This document shows, piece by piece, positions 13,340 to 35,410 of a stretch of 38,935 bases of DNA. The notes under the pieces were generated by a model. The model was not told the DNA's origin and did not search any database. It was given only the letters and a program-made list of their open reading frames with translations. Location: positions 1 through 38,935 of the forward strand of contig JAGVVU010000013.1 of NCBI GenBank assembly GCA_018304605.1. Reading direction: 5' to 3'. The number at the start of each line of letters is the position of its first letter. Positions within the stretch are counted from its first letter, which is position 1. Source of the stretch: Candidatus Aenigmatarchaeota archaeon (GTDB lineage Archaea > Aenigmatarchaeota > Aenigmatarchaeia > GW2011-AR5). A program made the translations under genes and the position numbers.

Positions 13340-13392
13340 AAAGATACGGGGAGGAGGGTTTTTAAGAGTTATCTATGTAATTATAGTTAGTT

Positions 13393-13462
13393 GGTGATGA
13401 GGCTCACCGTTAAACGCCGAAAGGCTGATAGCTTCTAATTCTTCGGAGGTGAGCCATCTGAA
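13393..13462 (+). ncRNA. candidate k-turn-containing structured RNA / leader element
   Basis: GTGATGA + GGCTCACC ... GGTGAGCC + A + TCTGA; internal GCC-GAAA-GGC tetraloop hairpin. Confidence 0.35.
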
Positions 13463-23798: not shown

Positions 23799-23933
23799 AT
23801 TTTTCAGCTCCTTACGGATTCCTTTACTGTTCTTATATGGCTGCACCCGAATATAAAGATTGCCCGAGTTTTTTCGCAATCCTGTCGTAATTGGGGCGTG
23901 ATTAGAAGAAGAATGGGTCAGGGCAGAATCGAA

Positions 23934-23962
23934 TTCGGCTGATCTTTAATCCTAAAGACCAT
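23934..23962 (-). other. inferred 29-nt tRNA-Val T-arm intron (53/54)
   Basis: BHB-like fold: CGGC/GCCG helix, 3-nt bulges AGA and AAT, inner helix TGGTCTTT/AAAGATCA. Confidence 0.75.
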
Positions 23963-23978
23963 CTGCCGATATCCACCT

Positions 23979-24042
23979 CACGAGGAAAGAAGCTTATATC
24001 TTCTTTCTTTCCTGTGTCTCGGGAAGCTAAGCTTTCCGAAGA
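23979..24042 (-). other. inferred ~64-nt tRNA-Val anticodon-loop intron (37/38)
   Basis: Insert between CTTACA and A-GGTGG; internal GAAAGAAG/CTTCTTTC hairpin; boundaries +/-1 nt. Confidence 0.75.
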
Positions 24043-24098
24043 TGTAAGGGTGGCGTCATGCCTCTAGACCACTGACCCATTCAAGCGCTGGGAGAGGG

Positions 24099-24161
24099 AA
24101 ATTCCAGCCATGCTTGCGTTCTTCCCGCAAGCGCTTTCTTTTTAAGAAAGGGCTTTTTGAA
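24099..24161 (-). other. tRNA-Ser T-loop containing inferred ~56-nt intron
   Basis: 63 nt between GAGGG and CCCTC; starts TTCAA and ends TT; internal hairpins CTTTCTT/AAGAAAG and GCTTGCG/CGCAAGC. Confidence 0.7.
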
Positions 24162-24203
24162 CCCTCGTGAGGCTTGCGCCTCACAGGTTTAGCAAACCTG
24201 CGC

Positions 24204-24235
24204 CGTTAGCCGCAAAACGCTTGCGCGTTAATCAC
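24204..24235 (-). other. inferred ~31-nt tRNA-Ser D-arm intron (22/23 or 23/24)
   Basis: GCCAAGCTTGGTCTAA(G)-insert-(G)GC; AACGC-GCAA-GCGTT hairpin in insert. Confidence 0.65.
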
Positions 24236-24285
24236 TTAGACCAAGCTTGGCTATCCCAGCAACAATAGTTTATCTGCCGTGATAA

Positions 24286-24788: not shown

Positions 24789-24921
24789 GCTCCGTTCGTC
24801 TAGTGACCTTTTCTTCCAAAGAAAAGCTCAACCAAAAGAAGAGCAGGAATTGGTCGGAGATCCCGGTCAAGGATACTGGCCTTTCAAGCCGGCGGCACGG
24901 GTTCAAATCCCGTACGGAGCA
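24789..24921 (+). tRNA. tRNA-Glu(UUC) with D-loop intron
   Basis: GCTCCGT/ACGGAGC acceptor, CTGGC-CTTTCAA-GCCGG, ACGGG-TTCAAAT-CCCGT; ~60-nt insert in D-loop; 73-nt mature. Confidence 0.9.
24806..24865 (+). other. inferred ~60-nt tRNA-Glu D-loop intron
   Basis: Insert between TAGTG and GTCAAG; hairpin CTTTTCTT-CCA-AAGAAAAG; boundaries tentative. Confidence 0.7.
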
Positions 24922-27684: not shown

Positions 27685-27837
27685 TTCTTCGGCGCCCATC
27701 TCTTGTTATAAACCCCTTTTAGAACTCGGGTAAGCCTTAAATATATAAAATAACATTGTAATAGTAACTTTTAGTGTTTTATAAAAGTTGTAAAATGACT
27801 TTTAAGACGTGGTCTAATTTAAAACGAGGTGCATCCA

Positions 27838-29838
27838 ATGGTAACGGCGTATCCGCAGGCAATAGCAAGAGACAGGACAGATATCAATCTGATATCCACT
27901 TCCCCCTATGTCAAGGACTATACTGACGAACGGAAAAAAGCGCTCGTCGGACTCCTGCCCGAAGGCGACGTGAAGGTTCTCAAATTCAACCAATCGCTCT
28001 GCCCCGGATGCGTGGACGACGAAAGATGGGACACGATGAAGATCGACTGCATCGTATACGTAAAGGACAACAAGGTATGGATGACCAAAAACTGCAGCAT
28101 GCACGGCGCCGTGACAGAGGTCTACTGGTCTGACTATGACATGTACAAGAAGGCCGAGAAGTTCCAGGACCCAGGCATCAAGATACTCAATCCTAACATA
28201 GACAAGAGCGAGTTCGAGATAAACTGCCCCACCGATTGCGGGCTTTGCGTCGAGCACGAATCACATACAGGCTTGGGCAACGTAGTGCTGACGAACAGGT
28301 GCGACCTTACATGCTGGTACTGCTTCTTCTATGCGAAAGAGGGAGAGCCGATATACGAGCCTACTCTTGACCAGATAAAATTCATGCTAAAGCGAATGAG
28401 GGACGAGAAGCCAGTAGGCGCCAACGCGGTGCAGCTCACGGGCGGCGAACCTACGCTGCGTGAGGACCTGATTGACATAATAAAAGCAGGAAAAGAGATT
28501 GGTTACGACCACATTCAGTTAAACACCAACGGCATAAACCTTTCAAGATCTTTGGAGCTTTGCCAGAACATAAAAAATGCTGGCAGTCACGTGCTCTACA
28601 TGTCTTTTGATGGCATGTCGCCTGAAACCAACCCGAAGAACTACTGGGAAGCGCAAGGGGCAATTGCCAATTGCAGCAAGGCGGGACTCGGAGTAGTTCT
28701 TGTACCGACCGTTATCGGAGGCGTGAATGACCATGAATTGGGAGATATAATCAGATTCGGATTCGGAAATATTGATACAGTTCGTTCTGTGAACTTCCAG
28801 CCTGTTTCCTTGGTTGGAAGGATGCCGGACAAATTGCGACGCAAACAGAGAATAACAATACCGGGCGCGATCAAGAAGATAGAGGAGCAGACGGACGGAC
28901 AGGTCGGCCGCGAGCACTGGTTCCCTGTGCCTTGCGCAAAACAAGTCACTGATTTTGTCGAGGCAATGAAGGAAGAGCCTAAATATCGACTGTCTATTCA
29001 CTTTGCCTGCGGAATGGCAACATATGTATTCAAGGACGGCGACAGAATGGTTGCCCTACCTGAGTTCTTTGACATAGAAGGGTTCTTCGAATACCTTGGC
29101 GAACTCACGCGCGAGCTAAACAGCAGCAAGCACAAGTCGCTCCGCAAGCCGTGGGTAGTGATGAAGCTGATGAAGAACATCAGCAAGTACGTCAACGAGG
29201 AAAAGAAGCCAAAAGACCTCAAATTCGTGAGGATGCTCACAGGCGCGGTAAGCGGTACGAACTATCATGGACTGGCGGATTTCCACAAGAATTCGCTGTT
29301 CGTGGGAATGATGCACTTCCAGGATCCTTACAACTGGGACATAGACCGCATACATAAGTGCGACATTCACTACGCGACACCGGACGGGCGCGTGCTACCG
29401 TTCTGCACATTCAACGTGATACCTGCCCTGTACAGGGACAAGGTGCAGAGAAAATTCTCAATCCCGTCAGATGAATGGGAAAGGAGAACAGGGAAGAAGC
29501 TCGTCGACGACAAGCACCACAGACGTCTCACTAAAGAACAGATGATGGCAATCAAAAATAATTTCGACCAGTTCAGGAAATACAAGGAGAAACGCAAGAT
29601 GTGGACCGACTGGGGCGAAGAATCTCTAGAGACGCCTTTGGCGTCGGGCATTCCGGCAGTTGCACAAATTCAGGCAACCCACAGCAACGATTTTGTGCCT
29701 CTCGGCGCAATCGGCGCGGCTGTCCTAGGAACACTTCCCAAAACAAAGCCGACGATGGAAAACCCGGCGGGAAGCTTCTCAGGCGGCGGATGCTGTTCCT
29801 CAGGCAAGGAAGAGAGCGGCGGCTGTGGCTGCCATTAA
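27838..29838 (+). CDS. tes: radical SAM protein, tetraether lipid synthase (Tes/MJ0619)-like
   Basis: SLCPGC rubredoxin-like N-terminus, NCPTDCGLCVEHESHTGL, radical SAM CDLTCWYC, QLTGGEPTLRED, CGMATYVF. Confidence 0.8.
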   Translation: MVTAYPQAIARDRTDINLISTSPYVKDYTDERKKALVGLLPEGDVKVLKFNQSLCPGCVDDERWDTMKIDCIVYVKDNKVWMTKNCSMHGAVTEVYWSDYDMYKKAEKFQDPGIKILNPNIDKSEFEINCPTDCGLCVEHESHTGLGNVVLTNRCDLTCWYCFFYAKEGEPIYEPTLDQIKFMLKRMRDEKPVGANAVQLTGGEPTLREDLIDIIKAGKEIGYDHIQLNTNGINLSRSLELCQNIKNAGSHVLYMSFDGMSPETNPKNYWEAQGAIANCSKAGLGVVLVPTVIGGVNDHELGDIIRFGFGNIDTVRSVNFQPVSLVGRMPDKLRRKQRITIPGAIKKIEEQTDGQVGREHWFPVPCAKQVTDFVEAMKEEPKYRLSIHFACGMATYVFKDGDRMVALPEFFDIEGFFEYLGELTRELNSSKHKSLRKPWVVMKLMKNISKYVNEEKKPKDLKFVRMLTGAVSGTNYHGLADFHKNSLFVGMMHFQDPYNWDIDRIHKCDIHYATPDGRVLPFCTFNVIPALYRDKVQRKFSIPSDEWERRTGKKLVDDKHHRRLTKEQMMAIKNNFDQFRKYKEKRKMWTDWGEESLETPLASGIPAVAQIQATHSNDFVPLGAIGAAVLGTLPKTKPTMENPAGSFSGGGCCSSGKEESGGCGCH

Positions 29839-29920
29839 CCCTTTTCTTTCCAAAGAAAGAAAACCGTTAGCGGAAAAGAAAGATATTATCATAATGGTGG
29901 CTCACTGGCGTTCGCTGAAA
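29836..29920 (+). repeat. 3'-end repeat element, copy A
   Basis: TAACCCTTTTCTTTCCAAAGAAAGAAAACCGTTAGCGGAAAAGAAAGATATTAT...GGCTCACTGGCGTTCGC. Confidence 0.8.
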
Positions 29921-34461: not shown

Positions 34462-35328
34462 GTGAAAAAAATGGCAACAATCGCGGAGCTGACAACAAAA
34501 CAGGCGCCTACATGGTGTCCAGGATGCGGTGACTTCACTATACTCAGCACCATCAAGAACGCGATCGCCGAGCTTCAGCTGGAGCAGCACAATACGGTGC
34601 TCGTTTCTGGCATCGGCTGCGGCTCGAAGACACCTCACTTCGTCAGGACATACGGGTTTGAAGGGCTCCATGGGCGGGGGCTTGCGGTTGCCAGCGGAAT
34701 AAAACTGGCCAACAACAAGCTGAATGTGATTGAAGTTTCCGGCGACGGCGACACTTACGGCATCGGCGGCAACCATTTCATGCATTCAATGAGGCGCAAC
34801 CTGGACATGACACTTATCGTGCAGGACAATGAAGTGTACGGACTTACGAAGGGACAGACATCGCCGACAAGCGAGAAGGGCTTCAAATCGAATTCGACTC
34901 CGAGCGGCGTTCTTGAGGATCCCGTCAACCCGATAACATGGGCAATAGCGGCGGGCGCCACATACGTCGCCCGCGGATACGCAATGGACATAATGCACCT
35001 GAAGAAACTGATTGCTGAGGGCATGCGCCACAAGGGGTTCGCACTGATAGACGTATTCCAGCCGTGCACGACTTACAACAAAGTGCAAACGGCCGACTGG
35101 TACAAGCAGAGGATATTCAAGCTGGAAGAAACAGGATATGAGACCACTGACAAGATGGCTGCCATTCAAATGGGCCAAATGTGGGGAGACAAAATCCCGA
35201 TAGGTCTCTTCTACCAGGAGAGCAAACCGACGTATGAGGATGGCACGCCGCAAATCGCATCTACACCGCTTGCAAACCAGGACATCAGCAACATAGACAT
35301 ATCCCAGCTGCTGGCCAAATTTAAGTAA
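34462..35328 (+). CDS. korB: 2-oxoacid:ferredoxin oxidoreductase beta subunit
   Basis: PTWCPGCGDFTILSTI, SGIGCGSKTPHF, GDGDTYGIGGNHF. Confidence 0.95.
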   Translation: MKKMATIAELTTKQAPTWCPGCGDFTILSTIKNAIAELQLEQHNTVLVSGIGCGSKTPHFVRTYGFEGLHGRGLAVASGIKLANNKLNVIEVSGDGDTYGIGGNHFMHSMRRNLDMTLIVQDNEVYGLTKGQTSPTSEKGFKSNSTPSGVLEDPVNPITWAIAAGATYVARGYAMDIMHLKKLIAEGMRHKGFALIDVFQPCTTYNKVQTADWYKQRIFKLEETGYETTDKMAAIQMGQMWGDKIPIGLFYQESKPTYEDGTPQIASTPLANQDISNIDISQLLAKFK

Positions 35329-35410
35329 CCTTTTCTTTCCAAAGAAAGAAAACCGTTAGCGGGAAAGAAAGATATTATATTTTCCGGCTCACTGGCGCTC
35401 GCGCTTTCTC
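35326..35410 (+). repeat. 3'-end repeat element, copy B
   Basis: TAACCTTTTCTTTCCAAAGAAAGAAAACCGTTAGCGGGAAAGAAAGATATTAT...GGCTCACTGGCGCTCGC. Confidence 0.8.

Follow-up and report, generated by a model that had tools for sequence, protein, structure and literature searches.

A tRNA-Ser(GCU) gene with introns in the D-loop and T-loop

The window, by which we mean the whole 38,935-nt stretch of DNA analysed here (contig JAGVVU010000013.1 of a Candidatus Aenigmatarchaeota archaeon, genome G000 in our set), carries on its minus strand, from 24260 to 24086, a tRNA-Ser(GCU) gene interrupted by two introns. Sequence reading, ARAGORN and alignment with orthologues delimit a precursor of 175 nt and a predicted spliced product of 88 nt. 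Exon 1 (GCTGGGATAGCCAAGCTTGGTCTA, 24237 to 24260) runs from the 5' strand of the acceptor stem through A21; it reads GCTGGGA-TA-GCC-AAGCTTGGTCTA from position 24260 and is identical at these positions to the intronless orthologue of genome G003. Intron 1 (31 nt, 24206 to 24236) lies in the D-loop, where spliced alignment places it at 21/22 or, with a shift of one base, at 20b/21. Exon 2 (24156 to 24205) comprises the 3' strand of the D-stem, the anticodon arm (GCU), the long variable arm, the 5' strand of the T-stem and the T-loop up to position 59, in the order CGGCG-CAGGT-TTGCTAA-ACCTG-variable arm-GAGGG-TTCAAA. Intron 2 (56 nt, 24100 to 24155) was placed by the same alignment in the T-loop at 59/60, and exon 3 (24086 to 24099), delimited by alignment with orthologues, supplies T60, the 3' strands of the T-stem and acceptor stem, and G73 (T-CCCTC-TCCCAGC-G). 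Every part of a tRNA-Ser that the sequence-only reading had named between 24086 and 24260 was found there: the acceptor stem GCTGGGA/TCCCAGC, G73, the anticodon loop TTGCTAA (GCU), the long variable arm and the T-stem GAGGG/CCCTC. At the predicted exon junctions GGTCTA is joined to CGGCGC and GGTTCAAA to TCCCTC.

ARAGORN called the spliced 88-mer as tRNA-Ser(gct), with its stems paired. The 88-mer submitted had the T-loop TTCAATT, one base off TTCAAAT at the cut position of the T-loop intron; the reconstruction with TTCAAAT obtained the full cloverleaf score. Annotation tools had been expected to miss such a gene, and they did: on the window ARAGORN, with or without its intron options, found no tRNA at all (the Ser, Val and Glu genes were all missed), while the Rfam model RF00005 left the unspliced Ser gene undetected and matched only part of the neighbouring tRNA-Glu. 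A second complete tRNA-Ser(GCU), which the sequence-only reading had named as evidence against the gene, was not found in this genome (82.6% complete). One other match to the Ser anticodon arm, at C10:4857, was read and rejected as a tRNA, for it showed no tRNA features. By eye we also considered the Ser locus on the plus strand and gave this up, since the full orthologue belongs to the minus-strand reading.

The neighbouring tRNA genes are interrupted as well. Directly downstream of the Ser gene, on the same strand, lies a tRNA-Val(UAC) gene (23914 to 24078) with a 29-nt T-arm intron at 53/54 (23934 to 23962) and a 64-nt insert in the anticodon loop (23979 to 24042). For the latter, no strict bulge-helix-bulge (BHB) with obvious cuts was seen; a TAAG complementary to CTTA is located 14 nt ahead of the exon and could point to a nested or relaxed intron. 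A tRNA-Glu(UUC) gene on the plus strand (24789 to 24921) has a D-loop intron of about 58 nt with approximate boundaries (about 24804 to 24861); Rfam matches only 24859 to 24913 of this gene, and ARAGORN calls the spliced product tRNA-Glu. Elsewhere in the window, at 13384 to 13444 on the plus strand, Rfam identified a fluoride riboswitch (RF01734, 43.5 bits).

The genome as a whole shows the same pattern. Only 13 tRNAs exceed the Rfam cut-off; with a lax cut-off there are 28 tRNA-like places, five of them uninterrupted (Ile-GAU, Thr-UGU, Pro-GGG, Cys-GCA and Met-CAU). Roughly twenty more tRNAs were rebuilt by removal of BHB introns, most of which have one or more introns at sites other than 37/38; the rebuilding was automatic, with some ambiguous boundaries and a few places without a solution, and the inventory, built from stretches around Rfam matches, is incomplete. 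A tRNA-Trp(CCA) gene on contig C15 (locus L146), for example, has a predicted acceptor-stem intron (3/4) and a D-loop intron, with none in the anticodon. Most rebuildable tRNA genes of this genome are thus interrupted, and annotation of genomes like this one misses much of their tRNA set.

Orthologues and the bulge-helix-bulge fold

We searched the spliced Ser sequence against 30 genomes of the same order. In archaeon GW2011_AR5 (G003, contig JWKQ01000002.1), which belongs to the same genus as the window organism, an uninterrupted orthologue (G003:C2:23199-23286) matches the predicted 88-nt product over 88 of 88 positions, with 95% identity and no gaps. Because it aligns without gaps, the inserts in the window gene are not a reading artefact; the alignment also fixes the ends of the gene (24086 and 24260), the insert sizes of 31 and 56 nt and the product length of 88 nt, all as the sequence-only reading had proposed. 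Twenty other loci were aligned to the G003 gene with introns allowed; two of them, in G014 and G004, gave poor alignments and did not enter the BHB test. Seventeen other orthologues are interrupted, making 18 interrupted genes with that of the window; their exons match closely and their intron sites differ, falling in the D-loop, the anticodon stem (28/29 and 29/30), at 37/38, at the start of the variable arm and in the T-loop (58-60). The Ser gene of G003 has no intron and that of G012 has four (29, 19, 56 and 46 nt, BHB p <0.006 each), one more than the three introns per tRNA gene that reviews name as the most seen in archaea (PMC4033280; PMC8450103). Many relatives have the same Ser-Val tandem but differ in its intron sites; in G003 the Ser gene is free of introns and the Val gene has two. 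Relatives with zero to four introns in one orthologous gene are good material for tracing intron gain and loss. Two non-canonical introns with no anticodon intron had been thought an uncommon arrangement. This does not hold within the order, where such arrangements are frequent; the related expectation that non-canonical positions are known mainly from some lineages needs widening to include Ca. Aenigmatarchaeota.

We then scored how well each intron fits a BHB in which a 4-bp helix is flanked by two 3-nt bulges and the cut separates the second bulge base from the third. The alignment supplied the ends of the 34 introns in the set, only equivalent one-base shifts being left free, and p values were derived by comparison with randomly chosen positions of the same DNA. 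At the exact geometry the mean score was 20.1 and 27 of the 34 introns had p<0.01. Offsets of 1-3 bases either way gave means of 1.0-5.3, so that the shifted controls failed; scoring with the cut after the first bulge base gave no signal and was kept in the offset series as a negative control. BHB-compatible folds, which had been proposed as a check on the window gene, were found at both of its introns, with a score of 27 for the T-loop intron (p=0.0015) and of 17 for the D-loop intron (p=0.018), whose BHB is relaxed: its central helix includes two G-U pairs and its outer helix is weak.

The lower score of the D-loop intron raises the matter of where it is cut. A 30-nt alternative, with cuts between AAGCTT and GGTCTA and between TTTTG and CGGCTAACGGC, scores 23 against 17 for the 31-nt cut and would yield an 89-nt tRNA. 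Its product, however, would have a D-loop unlike that of every orthologue, whereas the 31-nt cut restores exactly the sequence of G003 and G002; moreover, the 30-nt cut would leave GGTCTA in the intron and so require these six bases to agree with orthologous exon sequence by chance. We consider the 30-nt cut improbable and prefer the 31-nt cut because the other product has no counterpart among the orthologues. Far less probable still is that the locus is a decayed tRNA pseudogene that received two random insertions. The blindness of standard finders to the locus speaks for such a relic, but all Ser stems are intact, the exons are nearly base-for-base those of the relatives, both inserts have the geometry of a BHB, the genome yielded no second tRNA-Ser(GCU), and both tRNA neighbours as well as the orthologues are interrupted in like manner.

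These results bear out the parts named by the sequence-only reading and support its view of the locus as a tRNA-Ser(GCU) gene whose two introns are both non-canonical, the anticodon having none. The gene is real and typical of its lineage, Ca. Aenigmatarchaeota; it is the lineage that is unusual. Judged on its sequence the gene is very probably functional, and we hold it highly likely that it is a functional single-copy gene whose introns lie in BHBs, are excised by the splicing endonuclease and leave exons that an RtcB-type ligase joins. The transcript, once made, would fold so that each intron lies inside a BHB with two 3-nt bulges and a 4-bp central helix; on each strand the cut would separate the second bulge base from the third, the tRNA splicing endonuclease would thereby excise both introns, and an RtcB-type ligase would join the exons into the 88-nt tRNA.

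A hairpin module in introns and at gene ends

Intron 2 of the window gene contains a covarying hairpin module, CCC..GCGYNNRCGG (CCCTTTCTTAAAAAGAAAGCGCTTGCGGGA, 24123 to 24152, minus strand), identified by a pattern match for which 0.01 occurrences are expected by chance in the window. The pattern CCCTTN{8,38}ASCGNNNRCGGRA occurs 11 times in the same genome, 34 times in G006, 20 in G002 and 16 in G011; read backwards, it was almost never found in these genomes. Between the three bases that precede CCC and the three that follow GCG, 59 of 72 pairs over 24 distinct combinations are Watson-Crick, as against 26.8 +/- 3.9 in shuffles (largest 41). Rfam gave no convincing match at the module places. 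The idea that a purine third strand forms a triplex was tried on the module; run lengths agree in only part of the copies, and we make no such claim.

Copies of the module lie in tRNA introns of many isotypes. Others lie at gene 3' ends, nine of them after an open frame whose stop codon precedes CCC by 3-7 bases. When such 3'-end copies were tested as introns, none of 15 showed a BHB at p<=0.05, as against 13 of 38 other copies. The window itself holds two copies outside tRNAs, both on the plus strand: one at 29836 to 29881 begins at the stop codon of a radical-SAM-like ORF (27829 to 29838), the other lies at about 35320 to 35380, and both are followed by GGCTCACTGGCG(T/C)TCGC. Two loci of G006 (L179 and L180) show 16S rRNA-like sequence, recognised by eye, broken by module-bearing inserts, for example between GGATTAGAT and ACCCCGGTAGTCC; the introns would therefore extend to rRNA too. 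In two further loci, L083 and L076 (tRNA-Asn-like, on the opposite strand), the module appears by eye to be reverse-complemented relative to the tRNA, an orientation that fits a mobile element acting at the DNA level. We read the module as a probable structured RNA module or mobile element that joined many introns.

The splicing endonuclease and known systems

A single endonuclease matching PF01974 (E 1.3e-26) was found in the genome, at G000:C46:62348-62968. From its likely start it is a single-domain, alpha-type protein of 207 aa, and its single-unit length and lone gene fit the alpha4 type; the epsilon2 form, with three units and about 390 aa, does not fit. No gene for a structural subunit of the (alpha beta)2 type was seen in the genome (82.6% complete), in which a strongly diverged partner could be missed. 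An endonuclease match was obtained in 26 of the 30 genomes and was single in 24 of these; only G021 and G026 have a second gene (G021:C50:15116-16258 and G026:C2:48046-49146), which encodes, besides the short enzyme at another place in the genome, an epsilon2-like endonuclease of about 410 aa with the motif RKTFIMAI, in which the catalytic Lys is kept. As a calibration of the profile, the N. equitans beta subunit (3iey_B) scores 34.8 bits. An AlphaFold model of the endonuclease built from 57 sequences (pLDDT 89), which replaced an earlier one from 9 sequences with a poor C-terminal half, has 1A79 as its best PDB match (TM 0.84). By profile and by fold alike the protein is an EndA/VSEN endonuclease.

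The active site departs from the textbook. Among 56 aligned endonucleases of Aenigmatarchaeota and Nanohaloarchaeota, Tyr137 and His153 (M. jannaschii Tyr115 and His125) are invariant, while the position of M. jannaschii Lys156 is Ala in 47, Thr in 7 and Ser in 2, so that the Tyr-His-Lys triad, conserved in all four enzyme types (PMC6379350), is incomplete. A loop between the Tyr and the His, near the active-site His, carries Lys148 in 56 of 56. The set was gathered with patterns that included EHTKW and may over-represent the loop-Lys form, and a few of its records are titled otherwise (Nanoarchaeota, Micrarchaeota and Planctomycetota). The sole outgroup sequence (L134, titled Heimdallarchaeota) is without the loop and keeps the Lys. 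Since the catalytic Lys is replaced, the loop Lys is invariant, and loop lysines may take a direct part in catalysis (PMC12397907), we suggest that the loop Lys may do its work.

Ligation would fall to RtcB, for which the genome has two loci (G000:C54:29137-31959 and G000:C45:4842-7566). Each RtcB match is split after about residue 50 by an insert of about 500 aa, probably an intein.

From sequence and model we infer that the lone enzyme removes the Ser introns. This assignment is provisional, because alpha4 enzymes are listed, with alpha-prime-2, as narrow in specificity, relaxed introns being removed efficiently by (alpha beta)2 and epsilon2 enzymes only (PMC6379350), and because the ARMAN-2 enzyme loses its activity when alanine replaces the catalytic Lys (PMC12397907). 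Another enzyme might instead be at work, either an undetected catalytic subunit paired with the Lys-less one or an epsilon2-type protein absent from the assembly. The missing Lys of the lone endonuclease speaks for this, as does the epsilon2-like enzyme, with Lys at that place, that G021 and G026 also encode; most relatives, however, near-complete ones included, show no second gene with a profile expected to detect beta. We regard another enzyme as unlikely, if with a better chance than the 30-nt cut considered above. If the lone enzyme is indeed responsible, it would be an alpha-only endonuclease with the M. jannaschii fold, a Lys-bearing loop between the catalytic Tyr and His and the usual catalytic Lys missing; the loop would plausibly confer broad specificity, and introns could then be retained in the D-loop, the anticodon stem and the T-loop.

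The novelty lies in the combination of this lineage's intron load with a lone endonuclease without the textbook catalytic residue. We tentatively suggest, as a possibility short of an even chance, that Aenigmatarchaeota and Nanohaloarchaeota have a fifth kind of endonuclease, alpha-only and broad in specificity, in which a loop Lys substitutes for the catalytic one, and that in the order of GW2011_AR5 it was accompanied by a burst in which tRNA and rRNA genes gained introns, fed in part by the hairpin module, which is located at gene 3' ends as well. The findings extend to a further lineage the idea that the type of endonuclease and the load of tRNA introns evolve together. The current classification would call the Aenigmatarchaeota enzyme narrow and, by its triad, impaired, yet the lineage is rich in introns; a direct test is therefore possible of whether the enzyme cuts and which Lys works.

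Among the closest known parallels are the Thermoproteales (Crenarchaeota), for which 0.84 introns per gene are reported (PMC8450103). There, as here, non-canonical BHB introns are found, often several per tRNA gene, and similar intron sequences occur in different tRNAs (PMC4033280, PMC4090602, PMC8450103). The Thermoproteales belong to another phylum, however, the four introns of the G012 orthologue exceed the reviewed maximum, and Crenarchaeota use (alpha beta)2 endonucleases, unlike the lone alpha-type seen here. ARMAN-2 (Ca. Micrarchaeum) resembles the present case in being an ultrasmall archaeon with non-canonical introns and a Lys-bearing loop near the active site (PMC12397907, PMC6379350), but the ARMAN epsilon2 enzyme has about 390 aa, three units and the full Tyr-His-Lys triad, as against a single unit of about 200 aa without the Lys. 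The alpha subunit of Nanoarchaeum equitans (3IEY_A) likewise has an insert between the catalytic Tyr and His (PKKGKRSEREHSKW vs LKKGPKSAKEHTKW), whereas the catalytic Lys and a beta subunit, both present in N. equitans, were not seen here. The M. jannaschii alpha4 enzyme (1A79), of narrow specificity (PMC6379350), differs in having no loop and in possessing the catalytic Lys, but it offers the closest fold and the best full-length profile match, and, as here, it is encoded by a single subunit gene.
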